Below, piece after piece: positions 22,197-50,030 of a stretch of 64,000 bases of DNA (position 1 is its first letter; each line of letters opens with the position of its first letter). Source of the stretch: Pyropia yezoensis (lineage: Eukaryota > Rhodophyta > Bangiophyceae > Bangiales > Bangiaceae); NCBI GenBank assembly GCA_009829735.1, contig CM020620.1, forward strand, positions 20,248,020 through 20,312,019, in the 5' to 3' direction. A program made the translations under genes and the position numbers. The notes under the pieces are model-generated. The model did not search any database, was not told the DNA's origin, and worked only from the letters and a program-made list of their open reading frames with translations.

Positions 22197-23470
22197 GGTG
22201 ACTGGAATAGAAAACGCCTTGCGGAGGGACAGATGGGGGTGGGGGTGCACGGCGAGAGCGGCAGGATGCGGCTGTGCCGGGAAGGTACTGTACTGTACAG
22301 TACATACGTATACACACAGCAGGGCGTCGACAAGGTGGCGCAGCGAGCAGAAGATGTACAGGCTGGGGTGGATCCAGGTGCCACAGACACAGAACCCCCC
22401 TTCTCAAAGCGTGTGTGTCTTTCCGCTTCCAACATTTTTTCACATTGGTTTTGTGCCAATCCCGTGGAGTTCCGCCACGTGGAACATACAACTGCAGAAC
22501 TGTCACCCCGAGCTCCTTGCCTCCTCCGGTCACCACGCATGGCTCACGGCAACGGCACGAGCATCATAACGCTCTATGTGCCGGTGGCGTGTCGGCGGTT
22601 TGCCGCGCTCGAGGCGACTCCCGTCGGTGAAACCGGCAAGTTCGGGGGGCCCTGGCATCCTCCGGCGACACAGGCGTCGCCGCAGTCTAAATATGTTTCC
22701 GAGTGATGGAGTCCACTAAGACTGGCTCGATGATGTTGTACATGCAATGTGATGGCTTGGAGGGGGGGCCGGGTGGGCGGAGGCGGGGGACGGCTGGGCT
22801 CACAAAGCATGTACGGGCCACCCACGAGCCTACTTGGCACCCAGCCCGTAAAGAGGGGAGACCGAGAGTGACTCGCGGGGCTGGAGGGAGCGGCGGTCCG
22901 TCCTCGACCCCTCAGTCCGCGAGACGCGACATTCTAGTCCGCGCCAGGGCATTGAAGCGGGTGGCTGCGCCGGCGGTGGTGAGACTTTTCTGAGCTGGAG
23001 GCGAGGACGTGTGCTACGTGTATCCGTCGAGTTTTATTTTTCGCCAAACGTTCTACACATTGACTTCTGCACAATTATTTTGACACGCTTCCGGTCTGAA
23101 CACAAAAATCGAATATTCTCTTTCGCCGGGCACAATTTTTGTACACACGTGTACATCCTTGGCGAGTTTCCCTGGATCATGCCTGGTCAAGATTGACCCT
23201 GGAACCCCCATCCAGACACCTGCATCTGCCATGGTCATCGCCTACATCTCCGGAGGTGCGAACCACGCTGGTTATCTTGCTCCGCCCTGAATACCACATG
23301 ACCACGTGCTTTCTCTTGCTCACGCCCACCACGCGACAACGCTTACTATACGCGCACCCCTCCTGTGTGCTACAACCTTCGTTGACCACTGGGCCGTGGC
23401 GTTCACGCCCATCTCCGGCCTGCGTCGACAGGTGCGGTGCCTCTCGCCCTTCCCCCCCTCCCCCTCCGCG
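22197..23470. promoter_or_regulatory. Divergent intergenic region DJ-1 / DNL protein
   Basis: About 1.27 kb separates two start codons facing away from each other. On the DJ-1 side the sense strand has C-runs 38-50 bases upstream of ATG (22234-22246); on the DNL side a CT-rich tract ends just before ATG. No other gene is evident. Confidence 0.4.
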
Positions 23471-24322
23471 ATGGCCACCGCCGCTTTTCTAGGCCTTGTC
23501 AGCCTGCCGTTGCGCCCTCGCGGTCGCGCCGGCGGGGGATGCCGGTCGGGACGGCGACCCCCCGCCGCTCCCCCCTCCTCCTCCCCCGCGCCCGCCGTCG
23601 TCATTGTCACTGCCGCGACGGGCGGCGACGACAAGAACCGGGCGCTCCCGGCGGCCAAGGGCTTTGGCGCCCCCACCCCGGGGGGGGCCGGCCGCCGCGG
23701 CCGCGGCGGCGGCGGCGCGGACGCGCGCCGCGCCGACGCGTCGGCTGCGGGCGCGTCGGTGGGCGCGGCTGGCGGTGGCGACGGGACGCTGGGCTTTGTG
23801 GGCGCCGACACGATGGGCATCGTCTTTACGTGTGGGGTGTGCGACACTCGCATTTCCAAGTCTATCTCCCGCACCAGCTACGAGCGGGGTGTTGTTCTCA
23901 TCCAGTGCCCTGGATGTGAAAAGTGCGTGGCGTCGTCGCCTCCCCCCCCCCCCTATCCGTTATCGTCCTGACGTTGCGCTTCTCTTTGTTTTTTTTGTTT
24001 CTTTTCGTGCGTGCGTGGGTGGGCCCGACCCAGCTGCCGGTTGGGGTGCCGCGAGGCACTTGCGGGAGACCCGGTCCCTGGCCAGACCACGCCACTGACA
24101 TCACGACCTAGCGTTGACGGCCATGGGGCGCGTGTTGGTTTGTTCCTTTGTTGGCGGCCTCTGGTCTAACTCTGCAGGCGGCACGTCATCGCTGACAACC
24201 TGGGACACTTCTCGCAACTCACCGGTGGGAAGAAGAATGTCGAGGAGATGGTGGGTGAGGAGGTGACCCGTGTGTCGACTGACGTGTACAAAGCGAGTTT
24301 GAGAGTCTTAACTATCGGTTAA
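23471..24322 (+). CDS. DNLZ: DNL zinc-finger protein (Zim17/Hep1-like Hsp70 escort), two exons
   Basis: Exon 1 is 23471-23922 and exon 2 is 24178-24322, with a GTGCGT donor and TCTGCAG acceptor splitting a lysine codon; the product is 198 aa. The DNL domain is complete: FTCGVCDTR and IQCPGCEK supply the two CxxC zinc pairs, and exon 2 supplies RHVIADNLGHFSQL with the signature D-N-L. Family members keep mitochondrial or plastid Hsp70 (Ssc1/HSC70 type) soluble and active. The first 110 residues are Arg/Ala/Gly/Pro-rich and consistent with an organelle transit peptide plus linker; mitochondrion versus plastid cannot be decided. The Fanzor gene begins its 3' flank only about 170 bp after the stop, tail to tail. 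Confidence 0.93.
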
Positions 24323-24491
24323 ACCCCTCCGGGAAACATCCGACTCATCCTGGGAAAGGTCCCCGGGAAAAGCCGGCGTCTAACCTACTAGTGAACGGCC
24401 GACAATTACCCATAATTGGCTCGTCGGCGAAAAAGGGGGCGGCTGACGCACCCCGTGGTAGGTGAGGGTCACGGGCAAGATGTGCGCTGTC
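24323..24491. other. Fanzor 3' flank with hairpin at 24398-24428
   Basis: A 169-bp spacer between two convergent stops. GCCGAC-AATTA at 24398-24408 pairs with TAATT (24413-24417) and GTCGGC (24423-24428). In Fanzor and TnpB loci the guide RNA scaffold usually spans the nuclease 3' end and the element's right end, so this is where one would look; that function is inference. Confidence 0.4.
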
Positions 24492-27400
24492 TTAGCGTCT
24501 TGCAGTGTCCACCAGACCACGGGGCGCGTCTGTCGCCCCCGTCTCCGCCCGACGTACCCCGTCCATGGCACTGCCGGCCGCCGCCACCTGTTCCCCACCA
24601 GGAGCACCGCGTCGCGTCGTACAGGACGCCGCCGTCGCGTCGCCGTCGACAACCCCCCTACCGCCACCGCCACCGCCACCGCCACCGCCACCGCCACCAC
24701 CACCGTCGACGACAGTGTCCACTGCAGCCAGTACGGGCCATACATCGACCCGCGTAGTCGCACGGGTGCGACGTACAGGCGGGACGGGAACACCACTGGG
24801 AGGACGCTTGGTCGTCCAGGCCCACCTCATACCAAACGGGCGCTTGAAAGGCCACACGTTGGTACCCGTGAGACGACGAGCGGCCACCCACGCAATGTTG
24901 CGGGCCGCAACGTCGTCCCGATTGCGAATCACGGGCGGGTGTGGCGCTGGGTGACCGGGGCCTTGTGGGGCCGCGAGAGAGCACGTGTAGCAGCCCTTGG
25001 CCGCCCACTCGCTCAGCCGCCTCGGGTCGGCATAGACGGCGCGGTCCTCGACGGCACAGGCGGCCAGCGCGGCCGCGCGCCGCGCCACAGCAGCAGCACG
25101 GGCAGTGGCTCGGACGGCCTCCCGGTAGGCGTCGGGGTCTGGCCCTCGGCGCGTCACGTGGGTAGCAGAGGGGAGGGCCCGCTTTGGCCGCCCCCGACGC
25201 GAACCCGCCGCCATCCGCACACGCCGTGTCGACGGCAGAGGGCCGGCCGGCGGCCCATACAGCTCTCTTGGAATCTTGGGGGGGGAGTTGCCCGTCGAGT
25301 AGATGAGCACCATCTTGTCGTGACACTCGGAGCACGCCTGGCTGGTGTTGAACTCGTCCTGGTCGACAAACCAGCACAGCCGTCGGAGGTGGCGGCGGAG
25401 CCAGGCGTCCCCCCCGCGCACGCGCTCGGTGCCCATGGCCACGACGACCGCGCCGCCGCCACGGACCTGGCGAAGGAGGCCGCCGGTCAGGTCCCGCGCC
25501 ACCGAGGCAGCAAAGCGGCCGCGTTGGATGGCCTTGCGCACACGCGCTGCCCGCAGGTGTCGCGTGGCTTGCGCGCCAAATCGCTGGCCGTACGCGGCCG
25601 TGTCGCGACGGGCGGCCCACTCGAGCGTTGCCTGCAGGTGCTTGCCGTCGTCGCCGGTACGCATCGTGCCGTGTGCTGCTGCCAAGTCGACGGGTGGTAG
25701 GTGGCCAGCGACGCCGCCTCCGTCACCCGCCGCCGCCGCCACCAGTCCCGCCACCGCCGCCGCCACCGGTCCCGCCTCAGTACCGCTGCGTGCCCGCCAC
25801 TGCTTCCACGCACGGGCCAAAAAGTTACCGCCGCTGGCCTCGCGAAAGTGGGCGGCACTCAGGCTGTAGCAAAGGCCGGGGACGGGTGCCAGTCGACGAC
25901 ACCCCTTGCGCCGGGGCAGCGCGTCCACCCGGTCCTGCAGCGGCGCGTCTGGGGTGGTGCCGCTGTCACTGTCGCCCGCCGCGGCAGTGGGGTCCACCAG
26001 CCACCGTGCCACCTTTTCCGCCTCGTGACGGGGCACAGTCCACCGGGACAGGCGCGTGCGACGCAGCACACGCCGCACCGAGGTGGCGAGCTGGGTGCGG
26101 CGGGCCCGTCGGATGGACGCCTGCGGCCCACGCCGCACGCGCCCGTGGCCACCGCCGGGGCTCGCCGTCTGGTAGGTCTTTGCCTCGGGGGGCGTCGTCG
26201 CACCCGCCGCCGCCGGGGCCACCGCCGCCGCATCATCGTCGCTCCCGTCGGGTAACAACCGCCGCGCTTGTCGCTTGGAGCGCCCCCCCCCTGTGCCCGC
26301 CCCTGCAGCCGGGGCGCCCGCCGCCGCCCGCTTCCTAGACCCCCCCGGTGGGTGGCCGTCGGGCACGGTGGCGGCTGCCGCCACCCCGTCTTGGACGCCC
26401 GCCCCACGCAGGAGCGCCACGGCCGCCCGGTTGAGCGCGTCCAAGCCCATGTGGCGGGACCACGCGGCGCGCATCGCGGCTACAGCGGGGCGGGCGGGGA
26501 GGTCTGCCGTCGCCACGCGCTCACCCGGTGCTGCCGACAGTACGGCAGACCGTCCCGGGTCTCCGCCGACCATCTGGAGCCACCGGACGCGCGCCAACGG
26601 CAGGCCAGCCCGCTCCAGCTGCGTCAGTACCCCCGCCCGGGACGCAAAGCCTTTGCCGCCGCGGTCCCGCGCACGTCCACCGCCGTCCAGCTTCTTGGCC
26701 CAGGCCACCGCCCGCGCCTCGGCCTCTGCGGCCGTGTCGGGTCGAGACAGAAAAAACGTCACCGCCACGCCGTCGGTAGACAGCTGGGAGGCGGCCCGGT
26801 TGGCGCGGCCACCGACACCCGCCATGGCGGCCAGCACCGCTGCACCGCCCGTTCGCAGCTCTGGCCATGCCCGAAGACTGGGGTGGCCACGCACCCCCAC
26901 GCCAGTGGCGGCCGAAACTGCCCGCAACAGGGCGAGCATCTTGTCCGGCACCAGCGTGCCGTGCCCGTGGAGCACCGCTCGGGCGCCAGGGATGAGGGCG
27001 TACGGGCTCCCCACACCCACATTCAGGACGTGGAGGAGAAACGGCACGTACGCCCACCAGCGGCGCTTCTTCACAGGCGTTGCTGGAAAGAGGCCCGCCA
27101 CAGAGGGTGGCATGGCCGCCCGCATGACAGCCACCCGTTGCGCCAGCGCCTGGACCAGGTGCTGGGGGACGCCGTCGAGGCCCCGCCGGCCCGGCGTTGC
27201 CTTGTCCGCGGTACCCGCGCGGAAGCGCGCGGCCGCCCACCGCGTCAGCCGCCGCTCCGTGTCCCAGGCAGAGCCGCCCGCTGGAGCAGCCGTGGCAGGG
27301 GGGGAGGTGGCCAGCGTGTCCTTGGCCGCCTTGGCGCCCAGCTTGCGACACGCCGCGTCCACACACCGCCCGGCGTGGGTGGCCACGATGGTGGCGACGG

Positions 27401-28688
27401 GCTCCCATCGTGCCGTGTTGTTGCTCGCCGGAAGATACCGGTCGCACGCAGCTGCCGTGACGGCCATCACCTGCGTCAGGGCGTAGGAGAGCGCCTCTGC
27501 CAGCAGTGGGTGGCTCGTCGTCACCACAGAGCGGGCGCGCGCCATCCGCGTGTTGGCCCGCCCCTTGCCACACCCCGCACACACGGTGCCCGCTTGCAGG
27601 GGACTGCCAGACACACCCTCGCAGCCGCAGGCGTAGGCCAACCACAGCCAGACGGGCGCCCAGTTTGCGGGCACGGCCCCCGTCCAGTCGGCGTCCTCGG
27701 CGGCTGCGTCCGCGACGGTCGACGCCAGGCGGCGCAATGCCACGTCGAGGACGCGGAGCATGAGGAAGCGGAGCTTTGTAGCCGCCCCAGAGAGGTCCTC
27801 CAGCTCTGCTTGCAGCGCCGTCTCTACCGCCGCGCGCGTGTCGGCGTCGTCCTTGTCGTCCCCAAACAACGCCCTTGCCAGGACGCCCATCGGCACGGTA
27901 CACGCCCGCGTCTGCCGTCCAGTGCTCTGAAGCGGGTCCTTGCAGTCGGGGTCGACGCCGCGGTCGTAGGCCGCTGACACACCCCCACAGTGCCGCTGCA
28001 CCGGGCAGGCGGCGTCCCCGCTGCTGTGGCCCCCTCCCAGGCAGTCGCGACACTTGGGCGCGGCCGCCGCCGCCGCCGCCGGGACGGCGGCGGCAGCGGC
28101 AGCGGCGGCGGCAGCGGCTGCCGGCCCTGCACCAGCCGGGGCCTTGCAAGAGGTGACCTTGTGCCCGGGCTCGCCACATCCGCTACACTTTTGCGTCCGC
28201 CCCTTGCGGGCGGGCGGTGCGTCCGTGGCAGCCTCGCGCCGGGACAAGCCCGCGGCGGCCACGCCAATCAGCCCAGCGGCCGTCTTGGCGCGTGCGGCGA
28301 GTTCCACCTCGGCCTCGCTTGCCTCCGCCCGACCACCACAGTACACGCTGACCGCCTGTGCCGCGCCGGTGATGGCCGCGACGAGGTCCTCGCCGGCGCC
28401 GTCGAGGGGGCCCGCCGCCTCCTCATCCTTGGCCGCCTGCTGCACCTGCGCGACGGCGGCAGACCAGCCGGCCGACGAGGCCGCGTCGCCCCCTGGGGGT
28501 GCAGACACGCCCTGCAGGCGGCTCAGGTTGGCGGCGAGCACCGCCCGCTTGAGCGTCACCACGTTGCGTGCGTCTTGAACGTACGCCTGCTCTTGTACCG
28601 GGTCCCACTCCTCGTCCGAGGTGGTGTCGCCGTCCAGCCCGTCGACGCCAATGTTTTGGTCGCTGCCGTCGTCGTCATCATCGTTCAT
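24492..28688 (-). CDS. Fanzor (TnpB-like) RNA-guided nuclease with zinc knuckles, 1,398 aa
   Basis: The start ATG at 28688 gives an acidic N-terminus (MNDDDDDGSDQN); the stop is TAA. Two CCHC-type knuckles lie near residues 165-181 (CSGCGEPGHKVTSC) and 208-226 (CRDCLGGGHSSGDAAC). The C-terminal half has the split RuvC arrangement of TnpB/Fanzor: RuvC-I in GGDPGRSAVLSAA (Asp near 709), a candidate RuvC-II in VVVAMGTERV (Glu near 1086), zinc-ribbon pairs in TSQACSEC (near 1118) and CYTC (near 1233), and RuvC-III in NRDDVAARNIA (Asp near 1253). Such proteins are guided by RNA from their own locus to cut DNA. This one is much longer than usual, with a long disordered insert after RuvC-I and the extra knuckles. 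All catalytic positions and the frame are intact, so it may be active. A poly-C tract precedes the ATG. Which glutamate acts in RuvC-II is uncertain. Confidence 0.85.
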   Translation of the reverse strand: MNDDDDDGSDQNIGVDGLDGDTTSDEEWDPVQEQAYVQDARNVVTLKRAVLAANLSRLQGVSAPPGGDAASSAGWSAAVAQVQQAAKDEEAAGPLDGAGEDLVAAITGAAQAVSVYCGGRAEASEAEVELAARAKTAAGLIGVAAAGLSRREAATDAPPARKGRTQKCSGCGEPGHKVTSCKAPAGAGPAAAAAAAAAAAAVPAAAAAAAPKCRDCLGGGHSSGDAACPVQRHCGGVSAAYDRGVDPDCKDPLQSTGRQTRACTVPMGVLARALFGDDKDDADTRAAVETALQAELEDLSGAATKLRFLMLRVLDVALRRLASTVADAAAEDADWTGAVPANWAPVWLWLAYACGCEGVSGSPLQAGTVCAGCGKGRANTRMARARSVVTTSHPLLAEALSYALTQVMAVTAAACDRYLPASNNTARWEPVATIVATHAGRCVDAACRKLGAKAAKDTLATSPPATAAPAGGSAWDTERRLTRWAAARFRAGTADKATPGRRGLDGVPQHLVQALAQRVAVMRAAMPPSVAGLFPATPVKKRRWWAYVPFLLHVLNVGVGSPYALIPGARAVLHGHGTLVPDKMLALLRAVSAATGVGVRGHPSLRAWPELRTGGAAVLAAMAGVGGRANRAASQLSTDGVAVTFFLSRPDTAAEAEARAVAWAKKLDGGGRARDRGGKGFASRAGVLTQLERAGLPLARVRWLQMVGGDPGRSAVLSAAPGERVATADLPARPAVAAMRAAWSRHMGLDALNRAAVALLRGAGVQDGVAAAATVPDGHPPGGSRKRAAAGAPAAGAGTGGGRSKRQARRLLPDGSDDDAAAVAPAAAGATTPPEAKTYQTASPGGGHGRVRRGPQASIRRARRTQLATSVRRVLRRTRLSRWTVPRHEAEKVARWLVDPTAAAGDSDSGTTPDAPLQDRVDALPRRKGCRRLAPVPGLCYSLSAAHFREASGGNFLARAWKQWRARSGTEAGPVAAAVAGLVAAAAGDGGGVAGHLPPVDLAAAHGTMRTGDDGKHLQATLEWAARRDTAAYGQRFGAQATRHLRAARVRKAIQRGRFAASVARDLTGGLLRQVRGGGAVVVAMGTERVRGGDAWLRRHLRRLCWFVDQDEFNTSQACSECHDKMVLIYSTGNSPPKIPRELYGPPAGPLPSTRRVRMAAGSRRGRPKRALPSATHVTRRGPDPDAYREAVRATARAAAVARRAAALAACAVEDRAVYADPRRLSEWAAKGCYTCSLAAPQGPGHPAPHPPVIRNRDDVAARNIAWVAARRLTGTNVWPFKRPFGMRWAWTTKRPPSGVPVPPVRRTRATTRVDVWPVLAAVDTVVDGGGGGGGGGGGGGGGRGVVDGDATAASCTTRRGAPGGEQVAAAGSAMDGVRRAETGATDAPRGLVDTARR

Positions 28689-28705: not shown

Positions 28706-28744
28706 GGGGTGGGGGGGGGGGGGGGGGAGGGGGGGGGGGGGGGG
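28706..28744. repeat. Poly-G tract upstream of Fanzor ATG
   Basis: G-runs with single interruptions, poly-C on the sense strand of the Fanzor gene and 18-56 bases before its start codon. The length is likely unreliable in the assembly. Confidence 0.8.
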
Positions 28745-29990
28745 CGGAGGCGGATGAGCGGGTTGTGTGTGTGGGAACGACTGTGAGGAGGGTGGGTGGG
28801 AGGGATTGTCGACGGTGGCTGACGGGGTTGGCAAAGATGGGGAACCTCGGGGCACCACCTACCGCCCTATTTATTGTCTGGCAAGGCACCATCCGGGCCG
28901 GGGTCCTCACTCGATGCCGTACGCGTGCTGTAGACGCTGGCGATGGGCGGCACGGGCCGTCAGGAGGCCGGCGGTCCAGGTCCTCCCAACGCCCTCCCGC
29001 CCCCCCCCTCCCCCCCCTCTCCGCCCGCCCCCCGCCACCCCCCAACCGACGCTACCTCTCTGGCAGGGGGCAGAGCGGAGGATGCTCGCACCGCCACGTG
29101 CCCCTGTGGGCTGTCGCGTGGCCTGAGCTCGCCGCCCCGGAAATGAAAGGTCCTTCTCATCTCTGCGGCACCCGTGGCCGACGGTGGCTGCCGTGAGAGT
29201 GTCCTGTGGCGCGGCGGCGGTGGTGGCGGAGGGGCTCGCGGTGGCGGTGGTGGGGCTGGCGGTGGTGGTGTGGCGGCGGCGGTGGTGGTGATGGGGTTGG
29301 CGGCCCAATTGCAGACCGCGCACAGACGCTGTGCTCATGGCAGCCGCCAGTAGCACGACGGTGGGTGCGGGACGGAGTGCACCGCACGCACTGCGGCATT
29401 TGAGCCGACTGACACGCCCGCTTCCGTGCGGCTCGCCCAACCATGGCGAGCGAGCGCCCCCCCCCCCCCCCCCCCTCCCCCCCCCCCCCTCCCCCCCTCC
29501 CGACGGCACGTAATGGGAGAGTGACCGCCACCGTGCTGCGGGGCAATAACAACACTGCAATTGAACCCACCCTCGGCACTGCCTGCTCGCCACGGTGCAT
29601 GCGGAGCGGGCGTGTTGGGACGCGGGCACCCAGCCTTTTGGTGCTTCCGGGAGGCCCCGTCCGTTTGCAATGCACTACGAGCACCGTTTGGGAAAAATGT
29701 CATCCTGGACGTCTTGGTGGGGGGGGAGGGGGGGCAGTCGTGTAATGCAAACCCACCGCCACAGACGGCATTGCCATGCTGCGAGCTCACCGCGCGGTGC
29801 ATCCAAATGGCCTGTCACCAGCACACGACACCACGCGGGCCGCGTGGACCTACGGCTCGCGTCAGACCCGGGGGCGCCGAGGGAAGCGACTGACCTGACC
29901 TGCATGTGGCTGAACGTGCGGCCGACGGATGAGAGCACCCATCCCGGACACCCCCGTCACTGTCCAATTCAACATCATCTCGCGCCGCCG
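28741..29990 (+). repeat. Left copy of 1.25-kb duplicated segment
   Basis: This stretch matches 30522-31766 almost base for base; differences are mostly single-base indels in homopolymers. It ends exactly at the N-run. No gene is supportable in it; it contains the Fanzor upstream flank, GGT/GGC repeats and C-runs. Confidence 0.9.
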
Positions 29991-30490
29991 NNNNNNNNNN
30001 NNNNNNNNNNNNNNNNNNNNNNNNNNNNNNNNNNNNNNNNNNNNNNNNNNNNNNNNNNNNNNNNNNNNNNNNNNNNNNNNNNNNNNNNNNNNNNNNNNNN
30101 NNNNNNNNNNNNNNNNNNNNNNNNNNNNNNNNNNNNNNNNNNNNNNNNNNNNNNNNNNNNNNNNNNNNNNNNNNNNNNNNNNNNNNNNNNNNNNNNNNNN
30201 NNNNNNNNNNNNNNNNNNNNNNNNNNNNNNNNNNNNNNNNNNNNNNNNNNNNNNNNNNNNNNNNNNNNNNNNNNNNNNNNNNNNNNNNNNNNNNNNNNNN
30301 NNNNNNNNNNNNNNNNNNNNNNNNNNNNNNNNNNNNNNNNNNNNNNNNNNNNNNNNNNNNNNNNNNNNNNNNNNNNNNNNNNNNNNNNNNNNNNNNNNNN
30401 NNNNNNNNNNNNNNNNNNNNNNNNNNNNNNNNNNNNNNNNNNNNNNNNNNNNNNNNNNNNNNNNNNNNNNNNNNNNNNNNNNNNNNNNNN
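29991..30490. other. Assembly gap, 500 N
   Basis: Exactly 500 N, a conventional unknown-size gap. The flanks overlap each other, so no real sequence may be missing. Confidence 0.98.
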
Positions 30491-31766
30491 GGGGGGGGGG
30501 GGGGGGGGGGGCGGGGGGGGGGGGGCGGAGGCGGATGAGCGGGTTTGTGTGTGGGAACGACTGTGAGGAGGGTGGGTGGGAGGGATTGTCGACGGTGGCT
30601 GACGGGTTGGCAAAGATGGGGAACCTCGGGGCACCACCTACCGCCCTATTTATTGTCTGGCAAGGCACCATCCGGGCCGGGGTCCTCACTCGATGCCGTA
30701 CGCGTGCTGTAGACGCTGGCGATGGGCGGCACGGGCCGTCAGGAGGCCGGCGGTCCAGGTCCTCCCAACGCCCTCCCGCCCCCCCTCCCCCCCCTCCCCC
30801 CCGCCCCCCGCCACCCCCCAACCGACGCTACCTCTCTGGCAGGGGGCAGAGCGGAGGATGCTCGCACCGCCACGTGCCCCTGTGGGCTGTCGCGTGGCCT
30901 GGCTCGCCGCCCCGGAAATGAAAGGTCCTTCTCATCTCTGCGGCACCCGTGGCCGACGGTGGCTGCCGTGAGAGTGTCCTGTGGCGCGGCGGCGGTGGTG
31001 GCGGAGGGGCTCGCGGTGGCGGTGGTGGGGCTGGCGGTGGTGGTGTGGCGGCGGCGGTGGTGGTGATGGGGTTGGCGGCCCAATTGCAGACCGCGCACAG
31101 ACGCTGTGCTCATGGCAGCCGCCAGTAGCACGACGGTGGGGTGCGGGACGGAGTGCACCGCACGCACTGCGGCATTTGAGCCGACTGACACGCCCGCTTC
31201 CGTGCGGCTCGCCCAACCATGGCGAGCGAGCGCCCCCCCCCCCCCCCCCTCCCCCCCCCCCCCCTCCCCCCCTCCGACGGCACGTAATGGGAGAGTGACC
31301 GCCACCGTGCTGCGGGGCAATAACAACACTGCAATTGAACCCACCCTCGGCACTGCCTGCTCGCCACGGTGCATGCGGAGCGGCGTGTTGGGACGCGGGC
31401 ACCCAGCCTTTTGGTGCTTCCGGAGGCCCCCGTCCGTTTGCAATGCACTACGAGCACCGTTTGGGGAAAAATGTCATCCTGGACGTCTTGGTGGGGGGGG
31501 AGGGGGGGCAGTCGTGTAATGCAAACCCACCGCCACAGACGGCATTGCCATGCTGCGAGCTCACCGCGCGGTGCATCCAAATGGCCTGTCACCAGCACAC
31601 GACACCACGCGGGCCGCGTGGACCTACGGCTCGCGTCAGACCCGGGGGCGCCGAGGGAAGCGACTGACCTGACCTGCATGTGGCTGAACGTGCGGCCGAC
31701 GGATGAGAGCACCCATCCCCGGACACCCCCGTCACTGTCCAATTCAACATCATCTCGCGCCGCCGC
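30491..31766 (+). repeat. Right copy of 1.25-kb duplicated segment
   Basis: It starts at the gap edge with poly-G and repeats the sequence left of the gap until CGCGCCGCCG, then continues into new sequence. This is the layout of two contigs with overlapping ends. Confidence 0.9.
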
Positions 31767-31998: not shown

Positions 31999-32576
31999 GG
32001 GGGGCGCGCCCATTGAGGGGTCGATTAGATGTATAATGGCCTATGGACCTTTTCATGAGCGAATGGTGGGTCCTGCGTGTGTCCGAGTCATTTTTGTGTC
32101 ACTGAGTGGTGGGTTTAATGACCCTAATTTTCATCGCAGACCAAGCCACCACCTGCTGAGCAGTGGCGCGTCACCACCCTGGTGATGTGCGCCTTGTGGG
32201 CTGTTTGAGAGGCAGTGACGCGGGAGTGCGTGTGTGAGTGTTTGAGGGGCAGTGAGGCGTGAGTGAGGCGTCAGTGCAAGTCCTTTGGCGGCAGGAGGGT
32301 GCGGGGGGGGGGGGGCCAAGTCGCTCGGTGGCAGCTCGGTGGCAGCCCACACCATTGCCGACGAGGTCAAACGATCACATGTCTGGCAACGGCACCGCAC
32401 CCGACTGGTGAATGGTAAACAGGTAAGTTCAACTTCTCGCCCCAAACGACCCCCCATTTCGTCGTGAAAGTAGTGAATTTGCCGAAAAGAAATTAACAAA
32501 TACCATCAAAATCATGACGCAATCAGAAAACACTTATTCACCCGTCGACACATAACAATCTCGACAAGGATCCGAA

Positions 32577-32953
32577 GAGCGTTATGTACATAACGCTCTA
32601 CGGTCCGCCTGACAAGCCACGACTCCCAGATTCTCCAATGGCTCGCCTGTCGCGTTATGTACATAACGCGACACGATCAGCTCTGGCCAACTATCTCGAC
32701 AAACATCAGAAGAGCGTTATGTACATAACGCGCCACGGTCTGTCTACCGTACCACACCTACCAGATTCTAAAAAAGGCTCACCTCACGCGTTATGTACTT
32801 AACGCCACACGGTCAGCCTCGGCAATCTGTCGGGACGGTGCCAAGTGCTCGCCAGACGCGTTATGTACATAACACGACTCGGTCTGCCTTGGCCAAGTCC
32901 CCGCCAATATCCGACCATGGAACGTACCCATCTGTTGCGTTATGCACACAACA
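32577..32953. repeat. Array of six GTTATGTACATAAC palindromes
   Basis: Palindrome centres (GT|AC) lie at 32587/8, 32660/1, 32722/3, 32796/7, 32866/7 and 32945/6, spacing 62-79 bp. The first three and the fifth keep GTTATGTACATAA; the first two extend to 22 and 24 bp. The fourth has one change and the last is strongly diverged. Spacers share a weak CACGGTCNGCC-like motif after each palindrome, so the array looks like a degenerate tandem of about 70 bp in which the palindrome is the conserved part. It lies 0.2-0.6 kb past the helicase stop codon. Confidence 0.9.
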
Positions 32954-33160: not shown

Positions 33161-36100
33161 CTAGTACATCCTGTCGGGAGCCACAATGTTGATGTGCTCG
33201 CGGCCCGGTAGACCTGGCTGCCTCCACCTACGGCGGACGTTGTCCCACCAGCTCTTCCAGACACCTCCAGAGCTTGAAAGGTAGTCCATGTCACCAATCA
33301 CGTGGAGATGGCTCTGTGCCCGCGACATCATGACGTTCACGCGCCGCTCGTCGGACAAAAAGTCGGTGTTCCCGCCGGGTGGCGCCCCAGGCTCTGACCG
33401 CACGAGGGAGAGTATGACGCAATCCACAGAAGCGCCTTGGCAGCCATCCACGGTGGACACCCTGACGTCGGCACATGGTCTGCGGGGCAGCCGCCTGCTG
33501 TCTCTCACCGACTGCACCACTTCCTTCAGCTTGTTCCGCTGCGCAGTGTACGGGGTGATGAGCATCACCTTGAGCTCGGTAGCCCCGCTGGACGTCGCCC
33601 ACGCCAGCAGTAGATCCGTAAGAGCCATCTCGACCAACCGAAGCTCTGCAACGTTCATCAGGCTCTTGTTGTTGGAGGTGGTGGAACCCGACTTGTGCGC
33701 CCGATCGTTGGCCGGCAGGCGGGAAGTGTCTGTCACTTGCAGCCCGCCAAAGCGAATACGCCGACTCGGATGGTTTAGCCACGCGGGTGTTCCAAACCCC
33801 TCCTCATGGCGGGCCTTGGGCCCGCGCCCGTCCGACCATAGGCCAATGTGCCGGTAAAAGATTTGTCGGAGGAGGGACCATAACAGCGGCCGCATGCGGT
33901 ACTGCACGGAGAGGATGACGCAAGCGGACAGAAACCGGGCGAGCCGCTCAAAAACGCTGGACGTCATTGGCCGTGTCTCGCCCCTGTACTCCATGCCGGC
34001 GCTCGGCCTCAGCTGGGCATTGTCGCCAACAAGGACAATGCACTTGGTCCGCTCTGCCGGATGACCGTCCTCTTCTTCATCTGACGAGCCACCCGCACGC
34101 CCGGCCCGCTTCTGGGCGCGAACAATGGCGGCGACAGACGCAGGGACGCTTGTTGCCGCACCCTCGTCAATGATAATGGCGTCAAAGCCTTGACCGCCCA
34201 CAAGCGCCCCCGTCGACGTTGACGTGGTAGTGACAATGACGGACGCGCCGCCCACGATGCGCTTGCGGAGCTCCCGTTCCGCACGCTGCTGGCGACGCAA
34301 GGCAGCCTCCAGGGCTTGCTCCGCATCGGCACATTCCTCGAGGAGGTTTTGTGACCCACCTGAGCCCAGCTCTGCACCCTGGGCGCGGGAACGATCATCC
34401 ACACGACCGCCCACATCGGCCACCCGTGCCCTTGCCCGTTCCACCGCGGCTGTCACGGACGGGTAGGCGAAGGGGAGGCGCTCATCCACCACGGCGTCAA
34501 TGTGCGTTGTCCTGGCACGGTGGCCATCCGGAGGGGGCTCACCCACACGGAGGAGCGTCACGGCGTCGGTTTCCGCGCCACCATGTCGACTCGCAGCCCC
34601 CGGCGAACAGAAAAACTCGTGCACTGCGTCCAACAGCTCGTCACACGCCGTGTTTGTGCGCGACGTCAGCAGCACCCGCCCATCGGGCAGCGTCTCAAGG
34701 ACCATGTCCACCATGGACACAATGGCGCGTGTCTTGCCCGTCCCAGGGGGGCCCGCCACCAGCTGCACGTCACACTCGTCCGACAACAGCCCCCGGCGCA
34801 TGCAATCGACTGCGCGCCACTGGAACTCGTCCAGGTGGGCGTAGCGTGGAGGAGCACTCTGCAGGGGGGGGGGGGCCGGTGCCGGTACAGGTACCACCTG
34901 CTGTCCCCCGTGCGGAGGCGTTGCTTCGATGGCGAGCGCCCTCTGCATGACTGGCGGAAGAAGGCCCCAGTGGCCGAGGCCGCCAAACTCGCGGCTGTCC
35001 GACAGGACACTATGAGACAGGGTGACGACCACATTCGCCGTCCGGCGATGGAGCATCCGCTGCACGTCTGAACGACGCACCGCAAACCACCACCGCCGGG
35101 GGGGACCGGATGCGCCACCGTGGCGCGCCGTGCCGGCGTCATTGTCCTGCTCGTCCAGCCCCGGGCCAGGCGTCTTGTCCACCCACCACTCGCCTGCCCC
35201 CGTGGGCGGTGGGCCACCAACCCCCCCGCCGGGCTGCCCCTCCTTGTCCCCGCAGCGGCCAATAAACACCGCGTCCACGGGGGTGCTGCACACCGAGCCG
35301 ACGGGTTCCGGTACCCAAAAGGCACACAAATCACCCGGGGTGGCGTCTGTGGGGTCCACTTGACACTCTCCCCCGCGGTCCTTGTGGCGGCGGTGGTGGC
35401 GGCCGCCCCCACCGGGGGGACCACCCCGGGGGGCGGGCATACGCACGAGCACGTTGCACATGCGACACGCCCGCGGGTCGTCCAGTATGGAGCCCCCCAC
35501 CTGCGGCGACGACAGGGTGATGGGCGCGTCGATGCGAGCCACGCCAAAGCGGGAGCACAATGACGACGTGGTCACGCGCCCACTGCGGCCGCCGCCGCCG
35601 CCATGGCCCTTGTTGCTGCTGCCTTCGATAGACTGCGCCACCGCGTCTGTACCGCGGGCGGCGAGCTGGCACAAGGTGGCCACAACGATGGCCTGCCAGT
35701 GGCCCCCAGGTCCTCTTGCGTACAACGGGGACGGGCGCAGGTGGGTTGGGACACCCTTCCACCCCGACTCGGACGTACAGAGCGTCAACTGACCGAGCGC
35801 CACCCGATCGCCATCCGCGCCACACAGTGTGGGAGGACTGGCCTGGCTGGCACCACCCCCCGCCGCCGCCGCCGCCGCCGCGGGCAGAGGTGCAGCAGTG
35901 GGAGACGCGTCCCCCCCACCAGCCGGGGAACCGATACAAGGGCCTCCTACGCCGGCAGTCCAACCTCCGACAACTGCCGCACCCGCGTCTGCAACTGCAG
36001 GCAAAGCGGGAGAGGGCTCCTCCCCCCGAGCCACTGCCGTGCCCACCGCAGCCACCCCCGCCGTGTCGGTTGCTGCAGCAGTACCCGGTTCAGCAGGTGC

Positions 36101-39100
36101 ACCTCCGCCAACACCCGCGTCGGCCACGGCCGCCGTGCCCGCAGAAGCCCCACCAACGCCAGGAGCACCCACAGCCACAGCATCCACCGCGCCTGTGGCT
36201 ACACCCGCCGCCGATGGAGCATCGGGGGCAGCAGCAGCGGTAAAAGCAACCTCGGGCGTAGAGGGCCCGCCTGGGACGGCTGCCGTCGCGGAGGAGGTGG
36301 CAGCTACAGTCGCGACAGAGGTGGCAGCCACTGCCACACGGGGGGCCGCCCCAGTGGCGGAGGACGTACGCCGCTGCCCGACCAGTTGGCCGGCCCGGAC
36401 CACCCGGGCCACACTGACGACAGTCACATCATCGTTCTCTGCGTCATTCCAGTCATCGTCGTCGTCTATGAACATAATGACGTCACAGGGTTCTGCATTG
36501 TAGACAGGGGAAACTGCCTGCCCAGCCAACACATTGTCTGGGACCGCCACTGCGGGTAGGTAGCACACAAACTCGACTTCGCCCCCCGCGTCGTCGCCAA
36601 TGGAAAAGGCGTCTGGGTCACCGTCACCGGACGGAATCGCCATGGTCGCATCGGGCGCTGGGGGAGGCCGCCCATCTTTGTCGGCACCTGACCCGGCACC
36701 AACCTCATCGGCAGGCGCAGCCCCCGCCCCTGCGTCGTCTGGCGCAGCTGCCCCCGCCCCTGCGTCTTCTGGCGCAGCACCCGCCCCAGTGTCGTCTGGC
36801 GCAGCAGACCCGCCGAGTAATTCGTCGATGCGCTGACGTAGTCGTACGACCAGTGGGCTGGCCCGCTTGCCAGGCTTGGCCGGCGGACAGAGCGCACCCT
36901 TCAGCGCGTGGAGGGCCTCCGAATAGGTCGTACCACCGATTTCTCCGACCCAGGGCCGCAGGCCCAACGGTGACGCCAACCAATCCAACGTTGACTGGGC
37001 CAACACCCGCCGAGATGCCCACACGCCAACCGCAAGAGGCGTCCGCACCAGGTTATGGACGGCCGCGAAGTACAACCAGTTGTATAGTGACAGTGACCTG
37101 TCCGCCTCCACGTGCACGATAAGAACCTCCCAAAGCCACGGGAGCGCCTCCATCCACTCGTTGACAACGGGGGCCAGGTTTGCCACGTCCATGATATCAA
37201 AGTGCGTGCAGAAGTGCTTGTGCTCGGAGAGTAGGATGAGGCACGAGTCCAAGGCCTTTTGGACGACACCCCGTGTGCCCTTCACGTCTCGGTGGATGTT
37301 CAGCCGCATGAGCAGGTGCAAGACACGGGCGAGCGCTCCGCTCGCCCACAGCTTAACCGACTCGCCGGGTGAGTCCGCAGGCGGGCGCCCCGCGCCCACG
37401 TCCGCCAACACTTGCCGGCTGCTCCGCACAAACGCCGTACATACGGCAAACTGCTGCAGGGGCACACCCTTCCAGGCACGATCATCACGATCTTCCCCGC
37501 GAGCGCGCACAGAGACGTCTAGCAAGTGCAGGGCGTTTTCGACGACGCGCAGGGCGTCAAAAGGCCTTGGGGGGGGGCCACTCGACGACAGACCCGGGGC
37601 GGGAGCGCTGGTGGTCTCGCGGGCGGACACAGCGCGCCCCCCCTCATCGGACGGGACGGGTGCACACCCATCCAACAGGTCCGTGATGGACCACGAGTCA
37701 GCCCCACCGCCCCCCCGCTCACCCACACCGGACAGGCAGCGGATGACCTGCCGGGCGGTCCGTCGGAAGTGTGAACTGGGGGCTACCAGCCACCCGACGC
37801 CAGTGTCCGAGGCAGTGACGCTCGCAACACGTGAAAACAGGGCCGCAGCCGGCGCGACAGCAGTAGCAGCACCCGGAGAGCCAAGGACGGACGAAAACAG
37901 CAACGCCGTCATGTCGCATAGGGCGGTTTTCCATGCGTCGACCTCTTTAAAGGCGACGAAGAAGTCTGTCGGCAACATCGCCAATGACCCGGGCATGGAC
38001 ATCAGCAGGGCCACGTCGTCGGGGCTGCCTGCGCCTTCCGGGACAGGCTCGTCGTCACCGCCACCCCGCCCCAGGGCGGAAGGGTTGCGGCCAGACTCGA
38101 CCAAATGCGACCACAGGCGGGTGTGTAGATTCAACGGCTTCGGCTGCAGCACCTCAGCACCTCCCTTGCCCGCCTGCACCGCCCGGTGGACGATGGCAGT
38201 GTCTGCGCTACACGCGCTCCGTAGGAACCTCTGGGCCTCGGGGGGCCAGACACCCATGGACCAGGCGGTGCGAAAAAACGTCACTTGGTGCGGCCAGGAG
38301 GGAGAATCGGCCAGCGACCCGTGATCGTGCAACAGCTTTGAGCAGGCGGCGCCGACGGCAGCGACCATCTCGCGGCTGAAGTGGGCGAGCTCCGGACCAC
38401 CCCCACTGCCAGCGTCTGCTGCACGCGCACCTTGCGCGGGAAGCGTCGCCGGCGGCGCGTCCGCCTCAGGTCGACGACCGGCCGCGCGGGGGGGGGTTAG
38501 GGCCAGAGAACGGGGAGACAGCGCCGCAGCCGGACCCGCGGGGCCACCAGGACCACCGGGCGCGGTGAGACGCGCAGCCGGACCCGCGGGGCCACCAGGA
38601 CCACCGGGCGCGGTGAGACGCAGCCGCTTTTGCCCCGACCGGCCGGTGATCATCATCCGGGTGGGCGCTGCCGCCACCGCCGCCGCCGCCCGAAAAGACA
38701 GGTCGTCGATTGCCTTTCTTGCCCGCCACACGTTCGGAACCATGATGGGGATGACAAACATGTCCACGAGTGCCTCGAGGTTGGCGCGCGGCAGGCTGGC
38801 CAAGCCCGGGCCGCGAAGGGCGTGCCTCACAGTGGTTGCCATCTCACGTACCACGACCGGGTCACTCGCGTGCGGCTGGTACAGACGCGACAGGTGGGCA
38901 ACAGCGGCTTTGGCAACCCGTACACCCGGGTCGCAACGAAGAAGGGCCGACGTGGTCTGGATGACACACAAGGCGTCGGCCTGGGACGCCGCCTGCGGGC
39001 CCATGCGAGCAAAGAGGGTGTCACAAGCATGCACCAGTCCGAGGGCACTCGTCGTGTCACCCCGCGTGGCCATGGCACCCCCCGCCGGGTCGGTACCAAC

Positions 39101-39745
39101 GGCCGCCGTTCCCGTCACCGCGGACCTCACCACCGGGTGCGTGACGTCCAGCATGGTCTCCGCCGGCTCGTCTGCCACTACAGGCGCATACCCGCCCGGT
39201 CGCACCGGCACAATCTCGTCGACGTCACAGTCCATCTCCTTCAGCCGCTCCGACGGATCGGTCGCCCGCACTGGTGACCCCATCAGCTGGGCCACGCCCG
39301 ACATTTGCACGTCCGCCTCGACCACCGGGTCAGTCTGTGACGCCTCATGCACCACACCCACCGAGTTGGCGACCGGCATCGCAGCCGCCGACACACCCAC
39401 CGAGGCTGCCGTGCACTTGCCCGCCGACGCCGCCTCCAACGACTCTGCCGGTGGCGCCGCTGCAGCCGAGACCGTCGGCTCCGCCGGCGCCACGCCGGCC
39501 GGCTCGGCCACCACGTCTGCCGCGGCCGACGCCGCCTCCAACGACTCTGCCGGTGGCGCCGCAGCAGCCGCAGCAGCCGAGACCGTCGGCTCCGCCGGCG
39601 CCACACCGGCCGGCTCGGCCACCACGTCTGCCGCGGCCGACGCCGCCTCCAACGACTCTGCCGGTGGCGCCGCAGCAGCCGAGACCGTCGGCTCCGCCAC
39701 CGCCGACGCCGCAGCCGGGTCAGCCACCGGTGGCGTGACCGCCAT
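33161..39745 (-). CDS. Very large protein with C-terminal SF1 Upf1/Sen1-type helicase, 2,194 aa
   Basis: The ATG at 39745 (MAVTPPVADPAAAS) is the first in-frame ATG; the stop is TAG. The helicase occupies about residues 1640-2180: Walker A GPPGTGKT (near 1665), IIIDEGAATS (near 1855) in place of the usual DEAA/DEAS, VGDNAQLRPS (near 1905), SVQYRMRP (near 1947), LITPYTAQRNKL, STVDGCQGASVD (near 2098) and DERRVNVMMSRAQ (near 2138). All motifs for ATP hydrolysis are present. These helicases unwind RNA or DNA in decay, termination or repair. There is no Upf1 cysteine/histidine domain that I recognise. The first 120 residues are a 34-37-residue Ala/Glu/Pro repeat (three copies), and residues 130-1600 are unrecognised. 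Intron-free over 6.6 kb, which is unusual for a host gene and would fit a mobile-element or lineage-specific gene. Confidence 0.88.
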   Translation of the reverse strand: MAVTPPVADPAAASAVAEPTVSAAAAPPAESLEAASAAADVVAEPAGVAPAEPTVSAAAAAAAPPAESLEAASAAADVVAEPAGVAPAEPTVSAAAAPPAESLEAASAGKCTAASVGVSAAAMPVANSVGVVHEASQTDPVVEADVQMSGVAQLMGSPVRATDPSERLKEMDCDVDEIVPVRPGGYAPVVADEPAETMLDVTHPVVRSAVTGTAAVGTDPAGGAMATRGDTTSALGLVHACDTLFARMGPQAASQADALCVIQTTSALLRCDPGVRVAKAAVAHLSRLYQPHASDPVVVREMATTVRHALRGPGLASLPRANLEALVDMFVIPIMVPNVWRARKAIDDLSFRAAAAVAAAPTRMMITGRSGQKRLRLTAPGGPGGPAGPAARLTAPGGPGGPAGPAAALSPRSLALTPPRAAGRRPEADAPPATLPAQGARAADAGSGGGPELAHFSREMVAAVGAACSKLLHDHGSLADSPSWPHQVTFFRTAWSMGVWPPEAQRFLRSACSADTAIVHRAVQAGKGGAEVLQPKPLNLHTRLWSHLVESGRNPSALGRGGGDDEPVPEGAGSPDDVALLMSMPGSLAMLPTDFFVAFKEVDAWKTALCDMTALLFSSVLGSPGAATAVAPAAALFSRVASVTASDTGVGWLVAPSSHFRRTARQVIRCLSGVGERGGGGADSWSITDLLDGCAPVPSDEGGRAVSARETTSAPAPGLSSSGPPPRPFDALRVVENALHLLDVSVRARGEDRDDRAWKGVPLQQFAVCTAFVRSSRQVLADVGAGRPPADSPGESVKLWASGALARVLHLLMRLNIHRDVKGTRGVVQKALDSCLILLSEHKHFCTHFDIMDVANLAPVVNEWMEALPWLWEVLIVHVEADRSLSLYNWLYFAAVHNLVRTPLAVGVWASRRVLAQSTLDWLASPLGLRPWVGEIGGTTYSEALHALKGALCPPAKPGKRASPLVVRLRQRIDELLGGSAAPDDTGAGAAPEDAGAGAAAPDDAGAGAAPADEVGAGSGADKDGRPPPAPDATMAIPSGDGDPDAFSIGDDAGGEVEFVCYLPAVAVPDNVLAGQAVSPVYNAEPCDVIMFIDDDDDWNDAENDDVTVVSVARVVRAGQLVGQRRTSSATGAAPRVAVAATSVATVAATSSATAAVPGGPSTPEVAFTAAAAPDAPSAAGVATGAVDAVAVGAPGVGGASAGTAAVADAGVGGGAPAEPGTAAATDTAGVAAVGTAVARGEEPSPALPAVADAGAAVVGGWTAGVGGPCIGSPAGGGDASPTAAPLPAAAAAAAGGGASQASPPTLCGADGDRVALGQLTLCTSESGWKGVPTHLRPSPLYARGPGGHWQAIVVATLCQLAARGTDAVAQSIEGSSNKGHGGGGGRSGRVTTSSLCSRFGVARIDAPITLSSPQVGGSILDDPRACRMCNVLVRMPAPRGGPPGGGGRHHRRHKDRGGECQVDPTDATPGDLCAFWVPEPVGSVCSTPVDAVFIGRCGDKEGQPGGGVGGPPPTGAGEWWVDKTPGPGLDEQDNDAGTARHGGASGPPRRWWFAVRRSDVQRMLHRRTANVVVTLSHSVLSDSREFGGLGHWGLLPPVMQRALAIEATPPHGGQQVVPVPAPAPPPLQSAPPRYAHLDEFQWRAVDCMRRGLLSDECDVQLVAGPPGTGKTRAIVSMVDMVLETLPDGRVLLTSRTNTACDELLDAVHEFFCSPGAASRHGGAETDAVTLLRVGEPPPDGHRARTTHIDAVVDERLPFAYPSVTAAVERARARVADVGGRVDDRSRAQGAELGSGGSQNLLEECADAEQALEAALRRQQRAERELRKRIVGGASVIVTTTSTSTGALVGGQGFDAIIIDEGAATSVPASVAAIVRAQKRAGRAGGSSDEEEDGHPAERTKCIVLVGDNAQLRPSAGMEYRGETRPMTSSVFERLARFLSACVILSVQYRMRPLLWSLLRQIFYRHIGLWSDGRGPKARHEEGFGTPAWLNHPSRRIRFGGLQVTDTSRLPANDRAHKSGSTTSNNKSLMNVAELRLVEMALTDLLLAWATSSGATELKVMLITPYTAQRNKLKEVVQSVRDSRRLPRRPCADVRVSTVDGCQGASVDCVILSLVRSEPGAPPGGNTDFLSDERRVNVMMSRAQSHLHVIGDMDYLSSSGGVWKSWWDNVRRRWRQPGLPGREHINIVAPDRMY
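39423..39740 (-). repeat. 102-111-bp in-frame coding repeat
   Basis: Copies begin at 39423, 39525 and 39636 on the plus strand (spacing 102 and 111 bp) and encode the N-terminal repeat containing PPAESLEAAS and EPTVSAAAA. Confidence 0.9.
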
Positions 39746-39833
39746 CCCCACCAGCGGACCCACCGGCCTCGTTGCCGCCCCAACACCCGCAGGCTGGGCC
39801 GCCAGACACAGCACCACCACCCAGCCCGCCGCC

Positions 39834-40585
39834 TAGGCCGCTACCACCTGCGGAAGGAGGGGGAGGGGGAGGGGTGGGGGGGAAGAGGGGAAAAGGGCAC
39901 GGCAGAGAATCAGCGGCCGTGGGGTGGGGGCGCGGCTTGGGGGCAGCACACCAGCAGCGGCGGCGGCGCGGCTAGAAGAAACCGCGCCGCCGGTGCTGGC
40001 GCGACCTGCCCCCCTCCCCCAACAGAGCCGCCGCGCCCGTGCTCCCCCCCGGCCGGCCGCCGATCCTCCACCCCACCCCTCCCACACTCTCCCCCCCTCC
40101 TCCTCACGCCCCCTCCTCACGCCCCCCCCCCCCCCCACAACAAACGCACCGTTCCGGCCGCCGCAACCGCCACACAACCCGCCGCCTTGGCCGCTGCCAC
40201 CTGCGGGGGGAGGGGGTGGGGAGAGGGGGTGGGGGAGAAGAGGCAAAAGGGGCACGGCAGGGAATCAGCGGCCGTGGGGTGGGGGCGCGGCTTGGGGGCA
40301 GCACGCCAGCAGCGGCGGCGGCGCGGTTTGAAAACCCGCGCCGCCGGTGCTAGCGCGACCTGCCCCCCTCCCCCAACAGAGCCGCCGCGCCCGTGCTCCC
40401 CCCCGGCCGGCCGCCGATCCTCCACCCCGCCCCTCCCACACTCTCCCCCCTCCTCACCCCCCCTCCTCACGCCCCCCCCCCCCTCACGCCCCCCCCACCC
40501 CCACGCCCCCCCCACAACAAACGCACCGGTCCGGTCGCCGCAATCGCGACACAACCCGCCGCCTTGGCCGCCACCAGCAGCGGGG
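39834..40585. repeat. About 355-375-bp tandem repeat upstream of the helicase
   Basis: GGCCGCTACCACCTGCGG at 39836 recurs as GGCCGCTGCCACCTGCGG at 40189 and in weaker form at 40566. Each unit contains CGCGGCTTGGGGGCAGCAC and CCCCCAACAGAGCCGCCGCG. The first unit abuts the 5' end of the helicase gene, so its promoter lies in or next to this repeat. Confidence 0.85.
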
Positions 40586-40599
40586 GGAGGGGTGGGGGA

Positions 40600-40850
40600 A
40601 GGGAGGGGGCGCGGCACACCGTGGAGAGGGTGGTTGGGAATGGGGGAGAGGGCGCGGCACAACCGGGAAAGGGAGGGTGGGGGAAGGGAGGGGGCGCGGC
40701 ACACCGTCGAGAGGGTGGTTGGGAGAGGGCGCGGCACAACCGGAGAGGGAGGGCGGTGGGGGAAGGGAGGCGGCGCGGCACACCGTGGAGAAGGTGAGGG
40801 GGAGAGGGCGCGGCACGGCCGGGAAAGCGAGGGTGGGGGGTGGGACGCAC
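40600..40850. repeat. About 78-bp G-rich minisatellite
   Basis: Three imperfect units containing GGGCGCGGCACACCGT followed by GAGGGCGCGGCACAACCG. Confidence 0.75.
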
Positions 40851-49805: not shown

Positions 49806-50030
49806 GTGGTGGTGGCGGTGCGGTGCGTGTGTCGCCTGTGAGACGGGTTTTCGAGAGCAGCAGCCCCCCCCGGGGAACGTTGCCGTCATGCCGGGGCATG
49901 CGGCGCACAGCCTTCATGGTGGGGCGGCTCACTTTGCTGTCGATGTGTTTGTAGACTACTTACGCTTTTTGGCTTGCTCACGGGTGCCCCCGGCGCCGCC
50001 GCTTCCCGTATCAGCGAGGACGCCGCGGCA

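Follow-up and report, generated by a model that had tools for sequence, protein, structure and literature searches.

A 64,000-nucleotide stretch of the genome of the red alga Pyropia yezoensis (hereafter the window; C3:20248020-20312019 in the searched assembly of 107.5 Mb and 11 contigs) contains a divergent Fanzor-like gene that is real, uninterrupted and present in many copies. Going by its sequence, the product is called a divergent Fanzor-like protein, without formal placement in Fanzor1 or Fanzor2. Our preferred reading, held with moderate confidence in its full mechanism, is that of an RNA-guided endonuclease from a multi-copy red-algal mobile element, for which we infer RNA expression, a guide, binding, cutting and a role in mobility. 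The 3′ end of the open reading frame (ORF) and the 182 nt beyond it would be transcribed into a structured omega-RNA of the right end, with the host sequence immediately beyond the element right end as the guide; the protein would bind this omega-RNA, open matching DNA and cut it through a RuvC centre formed by D710, E1112 and D1258. An acidic head, a CCHC knuckle, a variant knuckle and a C354/C356/C370/C373 site may be add-on nucleic-acid-binding parts, which most simply would hold a long hairpin or single-stranded transposon DNA, and the element would additionally carry a UPF1/SEN1-type helicase frame. The gene and its motifs are located as follows:

24492..28688, minus strand: Fanzor-like ORF, 1398 aa from ATG to TAA, based on the translated frame, homologues and genomic copies
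28146..28187, minus strand: zinc knuckle 1, residues 168-181, C168/C171/H176/C181, a canonical CCHC motif (CX2CX4HX4C)
28005..28052, minus strand: variant knuckle 2, residues 213-228, C213/C216/H221/C228 (CX2CX4HX6C)
27570..27629, minus strand: possible extra zinc site, C354-x-C356...C370-x2-C373, in 3/3 proteins and 13/13 uninterrupted copies
26553..26561, minus strand: RuvC-I DPG, residues 710-712, with D710
25323..25355, minus strand: relocated RuvC-II Glu E1112 and first CxxC (C1119/C1122), DEFNTSQACSEC at residues 1111-1122
24981..24992, minus strand: second CxxC, CYTC, residues 1233-1236
24915..24923, minus strand: RuvC-III NRD, residues 1256-1258, with D1258

The first-pass annotation of the window had placed here an intact 1398-codon frame with DPG, zinc-ribbon and NRD signatures and an acidic N-terminal head. 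The frame was confirmed, on the minus strand, the DPG, the zinc-ribbon cysteines and the NRD were all located within it without interruption, and the acidic head is present. "Intact" holds for the window frame, which is not unique in this respect: including the window, 13 of the 20 copies examined as loci are uninterrupted, with 1387-1414 codons, while stops were found in L006, L007, L008, L009, L012, L015 and L019; L020 is open, yet its final codons are frame-shifted. The reading frame is open upstream to 29051 (1519 codons stop to stop), a stop-free run with a chance probability of ~2e-11 at the local base composition. The ATG at 28688 is shared by 20/20 genomic copies examined and coincides in the alignment with the start of the relative P0003. 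E1112 sits six residues ahead of C1119, as expected of a relocated Glu, in all 13 uninterrupted copies, and a C4 zinc finger (C1119/C1122/C1233/C1236) lies between RuvC-II and RuvC-III, followed by R1257-D1258.

The combination of DPG with a Glu six residues before the zinc finger is described as the molecular fingerprint of Fanzors in the available part of PMC10711439. A relaxed pattern of the full fingerprint, widened after the protein had been seen, was matched by one of the 106 window frames of at least 200 aa and by one of 200,000 protein shuffles. Fanzor/TnpB motif patterns gave no match in the genome contigs and one match in the viral contigs (L001), which lies in no same-strand frame of at least 100 aa. 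By hhalign, a family profile of seven members, five of them retained by the filter, was compared with the RuvC-II/TNB segments of SpuFz1, GtFz1 and PpFz1 and scored 37.6 (E 1.4e-5 for one comparison, probability 80%), versus 20.0 for the best of 200 column shuffles. The alignment comprises 38 columns and pairs DEFNTSQACSEC with SpuFz1 DEYKTSSVCPRC. Against the three Fanzor1 segments taken singly the scores were 26.3, 30.1 and 32.7, and the window frame, used as a single sequence, ranked first of 97 frames (29.8, with the next at 18.5).

Several observations weigh against the Fanzor assignment. The three Fanzor1 segments had been retrieved with a hand-written bait consensus, and the RuvC-II/first-CxxC stretch was the only part aligned in the family comparison. 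The Pfam TNB model PF07282 reached 16.9 bits (E=0.0073) versus a cut-off of 26.3, or 18.9 with the C-terminal piece, and did not match P0003 or P0002; the NCBIfam search gave no match, no curated family model being found at cut-off, and PDB sequence searches started from the family itself found no solved Fanzor. From D710 to T1115 there are 404 residues, which exceeds the spacing D-X(125,275)-[TS][TS] given in the accessible part of PMC3627910, and the two CxxC are 110 residues apart, versus the search pattern CxxC-x(12,18)-CxxC given in that of PMC10711439. Since the printed SpuFz1 and PpFz1 segments also violate the latter pattern, the published spacings were taken as descriptive. Two AlphaFold2 runs, with 3 and 10 aligned sequences, had predicted local distance difference test (pLDDT) values of 31.6 and 31.7, too low for a model of the fold, and C1236, the last TNB Cys, is Ala in P0003. 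Thus, of the TnpB/Fanzor identity proposed in the first pass, the fingerprint, the similarity to the Fanzor1 profile and the mobile-element setting stood; the hidden Markov model search that it had suggested left Pfam TNB below cut-off and NCBIfam empty, which is part of what the annotation itself had named as contrary evidence.

The low pLDDT values, the sub-threshold Pfam score and the low-complexity composition are also what would be expected of a chance resemblance, in which an unrelated transposon protein, rich in Ala and Arg and encoded by a GC-rich ORF, happens to look like a Fanzor. Such a resemblance is already disfavoured by a profile score above 200/200 shuffles and above the 96 other frames, by the complete fingerprint and by the invariance of D710, E1112, D1258 and the TNB cysteines in 13/13 copies, and we regard it as very improbable.

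Few relatives of the protein were found. The protein searches scored 7984, 7985 (the candidates sharing most words) and 125 candidates; matches at 86-97% identity were Pyropia yezoensis proteins, and beyond these only P0003, P0008 and P0009 turned up, so that no deep alignment could be built. P0003 (1347 aa, on a 5.2-kb ENA contig) is 61% identical across residues 480-1310 and retains all knuckle ligands, D710, E1112 and the RD. Its identity amounts to 75% in RuvC-I, 77% in RuvC-II and 50% from the second CxxC to RuvC-III, and to 48% in the knuckle region, 46% in the head and 35% in the linker (771-845). The Glu is replaced in the fragment P0009.

In the genome, at least 42 matched pieces and at least 33 copies by count were found among the best candidates scored. 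Patterns allowing up to two mismatches (reversed controls, 0 each) located 66 RuvC-II sites, with the Glu codon retained at 64 of them as counted by eye, 84 hairpin-core sites and 80 sites of the right-end 20-mer. The 13 uninterrupted copies have a mean nucleotide identity of 97.0%, with synonymous (pS) and non-synonymous (pN) divergences of 0.047 and 0.023, and a non-synonymous to synonymous ratio (dN/dS) of 0.47 (0.33-0.72 in a 300-codon bootstrap of 60 draws). By segment, dN/dS was 0.28 in RuvC-I, 0.30 in residues 236-400, 0.36 in the knuckles, 0.62 in the head, 0.67 in residues 846-1066, 0.71 in RuvC-II, where changes are few, and 0.82 in the linker; the 1.2 of the last 20 codons is raised by the shifted tail of L020. 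In these copies D710, E1112, D1258 and the four TNB Cys are present in 13/13, and within the DPG the Asp and Pro in 13/13 and the Gly in 12/13.

These data bear on a further explanation, namely that the product is an accessory protein of a transposable element (TE) which has a RuvC-like fold but no longer cuts under RNA guidance, and which instead serves the element by binding DNA or RNA or as a structural nuclease; in that case both the motifs and the constraint would be an inheritance. The strong divergence with insertions in RuvC and TNB, the failure of every family model to pass, the C4 zinc site incomplete in P0003, the replaced Glu of P0009 and the RuvC-II ratio of 0.71 fit such a protein. 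The invariance of the three acidic residues and of the TNB cysteines, with Asp/Glu/Asp kept also in P0003, the RuvC-I ratio of 0.28 and the candidate structured right-end RNA described below argue against it, and we judge it improbable.

As for the "two CCHC zinc knuckles" of the first-pass annotation, residues 168-181 have the strict CX2CX4HX4C spacing and stand as a canonical knuckle, and residues 213-228, with CX2CX4HX6C, are to be read as a variant. P0002 and P0003 share all eight ligands (3/3 aligned proteins), and these ligands occur in 13/13 uninterrupted copies, save C181 and C213 at 12/13 each; the genome-wide paralog search that had been proposed thus returned many copies, with the knuckle ligands retained in 12-13 of the 13 uninterrupted ones. 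Knuckle models were missing from the Pfam matches of P0001 up to E 1 and from those of P0003 up to E 5; P0002 had zf-CCHC_6 at E 4.8. At the level of the aligned residues, the predicted zinc-knuckle head is conserved.

The right end of the element and the putative RNA comprise the following features:

24310..24329, plus strand: terminal 20-mer, element right end; the flanks differ in 20/20 copies (by eye)
24422..24554, minus strand: 133-nt hairpin spanning the stop codon, candidate omega-RNA scaffold
24310..24421, minus strand: remaining 3′ region to the right end, exactly at which a closing stem is predicted to finish; taken alone, its fold is not significant

The match to the window ends 181-186 nt beyond the stop in all 19 other copies, and in the window itself the right end is at 24310, 182 nt past the stop, reading ...GGAGGGGTTTAACCGATAGT(T). 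A Helitron-type end at CTAG, ~78 nt before the right end, was dropped because the copies match on to 24310. The element right end comes directly after a split gene (23306-24300, plus strand), which, judged by eye, presumably resembles a plastid-targeted DNL-type zinc-finger protein (CGVCDTRISKSIS..., RHVIADNLGHF...).

When both strands of the window were scanned for folds, in 1252 stretches of 150 nt with 30 shuffles per stretch, 24401-24550 had the lowest z values on its two strands (-7.9 and -7.7); a start moved by 19 nt gave a z of -6.2. Folded as 24420-24556, it had -87.2 kcal/mol and a z of -8.4, with 0/200 shuffles equal. It contains the final 20 codons of the Fanzor-like ORF and the stop, and 51-53 of its 53 pairs are retained in 20/20 copies, 38 of them being invariant. 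The full 245 nt to the right end had a z of -6.3; in the predicted fold, a stem closes exactly at that end. Pairwise divergence was 0.012 in the non-coding half of the hairpin and 0.018 from there to the end, versus a synonymous value of 0.047, where the sets differ (20 copies for the hairpin, 13 for the ORF) and hypermutable sites may inflate the synonymous figure. The tail APRGLVD[TA]AR, which encodes the inner arm of the hairpin, is retained in P0003, P0005 and P0008, and the Gly-rich stretch preceding it is not; L010, L017 and L018 deviate from this tail. According to the parts of the papers available, GtFz1 shares 17 C-terminal codons with its omega-RNA, and the omega-RNA of ISDra2 TnpB also overlaps its ORF (PMC10432273). 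An RNA of 245 nt would be long, since the omega-RNAs of the three solved Fz1 proteins have 75-150 nt (PMC11423790, in part); a 275-nt 5′ extension of the RNA helped SpuFz1 (PMC10432273). Rfam gave two matches, both far below cut-off (E 0.18 and 0.72).

Other properties of this region are less favourable to an omega-RNA. By a list read by eye, no hairpin pair changed on both sides among the 20 copies, so that covariation is uninformative. The coding arm diverges by 0.032, as does the whole ORF (0.030), and is therefore taken to be without extra constraint, which lowered our confidence in the full mechanism from fairly high to moderate. The hairpin stops 112 nt short of the right end, and these 112 nt fold weakly (z -1.4, 21/200 shuffles equal). 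It is quite possible, if short of probable, that the protein is what we propose and that the hairpin is a DNA-level transposon end of the Helitron or IS605 kind or an RNA 3′-processing signal; as the protein part is shared, the likelihood we assign here overlaps with that of the preferred reading. A perfect hairpin that folds on both strands, ranked first and second, its place inside the right end, the ordinary conservation of the coding arm, the weak folding of the last 112 nt and, as in elements with end hairpins, the absence of an inverted right-end partner within 150 kb (by eye) point in that direction. The overlap with the last 20 ORF codons, similar to the omega-RNAs of GtFz1 and ISDra2 TnpB, and the z of -6.3 of the whole 245 nt, with the stem predicted to close at its terminus, argue for the omega-RNA instead.

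Of the 66 sites having both hairpin and right end, 17 had no RuvC-II pattern within 3 kb. Six of these were examined, and each retains ~210-1150 bp of element end beside other DNA. In L035, L036 and L038 this DNA is one other repeat, and the last 365 bp of L040 recur in L035 and L038; the DNA adjoining the L037 and L039 remnants had no match among the loci compared. The idea of "ghost" omega-RNA loci was dropped, nested or adjacent repeats being likely in four of the six (L035, L036, L038 and L040). The other repeat is present in L020, L030 and L034 as well as in L035, L036 and L038; in L035 and L036 its end, ...GTGGTTTTTGCCACA, abuts a broken Fanzor element or comes to within 2 nt of it, and the two breakpoints differ.

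Upstream of the Fanzor-like ORF the repeat continues with the following features:

33161..39832, minus strand: second ORF of the repeat, 2223 codons stop to stop, a predicted UPF1/SEN1-type superfamily 1 helicase in its C-terminal part
39813..40950, no strand assigned: tandem array on the upstream side of the helicase ORF, of a length that varies among copies
32554..32900, no strand assigned: palindrome block inside the repeat, core GCGTTATGTACATAACGC and variants, matched in the copies examined

The 2223-codon frame has AAA_11/AAA_12 domains, and its C-terminal part matches the structures of UPF1 (E 2e-20), DNA2, SMUBP-2 and SEN1; with the entire frame as the query, the structure search gave no match at E 1e-20. 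Six of six copies (L003, L004, L005, L006, L016 and L018) match the window upstream into 33161-39832, with 95-98% DNA identity in the main blocks. Within the sequence read, the repeat spans ~10 kb in each of the six; in L018 it exceeds 14 kb and extends to the tandem array at ~40.6-40.95 kb. Among the pieces 9-15 kb upstream (matches >86%), the tandem array was found in L006 and L007, and no match in L003 and L004; there L004 has an N gap and L003 carries another repeat. A 5′ truncation of copies, as in long interspersed nuclear elements, was dropped, as the apparent truncation of L004 is this N gap. The palindrome block, made of repeated near-palindromes GCGTTATGTACATAACGC, is a possible binding site or origin.

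Taken together, these features could define a new kind of mobile element, with an oversized RNA-guided nuclease, a zinc-knuckle head, a UPF1/SEN1-type helicase, no inverted repeats and a right-end RNA of at most ~245 nt overlapping the nuclease gene, an idea that we consider rather unlikely. In both of the other copies examined at full length the helicase frame is disrupted, which weighs against the preferred reading and lowered our estimate for the new kind slightly: in L018 it aligns end to end in one frame, with a longest stop-free run of 2049 codons starting before the match, and in L016 it is distributed over three frames. The helicase alone would not move the element. No inverted partner of the right-end sequence was found in the loci compared, where the left end was not located, and a reading of the genome list by eye showed none for the 20-mer within 150 kb. 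No target site duplication (TSD) above mismatched controls was found in seven copies without a known left end, nor at six breakpoints. The block 47899-50331 was not counted as part of the element; it occurs also in L016, but adjoins 500 N there. In the copy represented by L008 and L034, helicase DNA is found 12-15 kb upstream from the Fanzor ORF, ~9 kb farther than in other copies, so that an insertion separates the two. Beyond the tandem array the copies diverge: L006 and L018 share a 3.1-kb stretch (96.7%), absent from the window, at 11.5-15.9 kb upstream of the Fanzor ORF, whose frames in L018 resemble, by eye, a DNA methylase (LDTFAGTCVTAAAC) and a SET-like protein.

Among known systems, the accessible parts of PMC10432273 and PMC11423790 describe Fanzor1 proteins (SpuFz1, GtFz1, PpFz1) that share the DPG, the relocated Glu, the TNB cysteines and the RD with our family; known Fanzor1 members reside in mobile elements and have a structured RNA beside or overlapping the ORF 3′ end. 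The comparison with the solved proteins covered their RuvC-II/TNB stretch, and similarity was detected there. Unlike these, of which most have 600-700 aa (PMC11423790), the present protein has 1398 aa, knuckles, an acidic head and long insertions in RuvC and TNB. That a Fanzor1 can host a large RuvC insertion is shown by the ~100-aa Fanzor RuvC Insertion (FRI) of PpFz1 (PMC11423790). CMe-1A from the red alga Cyanidioschyzon merolae, the sole red-algal family and species in the table of PMC3627910, is likewise a multi-copy Fanzor1 element; it lacks terminal inverted repeats (TIRs). Compared by description, it differs in its size of ~3 kb and in that no second ORF is mentioned in the available part of that paper, whereas the repeat here has at least 10 kb and helicase DNA. 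The MCi-2 Fanzor1 elements of Mucor, in the same source, are also long, with a Fanzor-bearing 3′ part that is constant and 5′ parts that vary. They have no recognizable TIRs and carry TSDs of 11-12 bp; no TSDs were found here, where the left end was not located. In full-text literature, with subscription papers mostly outside, we found no paper pairing Fanzor with a zinc knuckle, Pyropia, Porphyra or a Sen1 helicase; new leads come from the hairpin at the right end and from the helicase partner.

A family of twice the usual Fz1 size, in which the predicted zinc-binding add-ons are conserved, many copies are uninterrupted and the element has a defined end, could serve as a test bed for how Fanzors serve their transposons and how extra domains affect the handling of guide and DNA, and the hairpin is a concrete candidate RNA to look for.

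The assembly between the Fanzor-like ORF and the helicase ORF contains one further feature:

28711..31765, no strand assigned: 1.28-kb stretch, present twice in the assembly around a 500-N gap (29991-30490)

The window has two runs of exactly 500 N (29991-30490 and 50332-50831), and 28711-29990 is repeated at 30492-31765 with 98.5% identity. Because six other copies compared there carry the stretch once, a genuine duplication upstream of the Fanzor-like ORF was rejected and the doubling is read as an assembly artefact; the ORF lies outside it.

Elsewhere in the window, the second-strongest fold was that of 1201-1350 (z -7.5 and -6.8 on the two strands), which contains an inverted repeat at 1246-1275/1279-1308. 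A 183-bp tandem repeat of 3.2 copies in GC-rich surroundings occupies 8697-9285. At 52196-56311 (plus strand) there is a Ty3/gypsy-type retrotransposon ORF of 1371 aa stop to stop, with reverse transcriptase, RNase H, integrase and a weak chromo domain, and at 14697-16700 (minus strand) a frame with ACT and HAD domains, like phosphoserine phosphatase.

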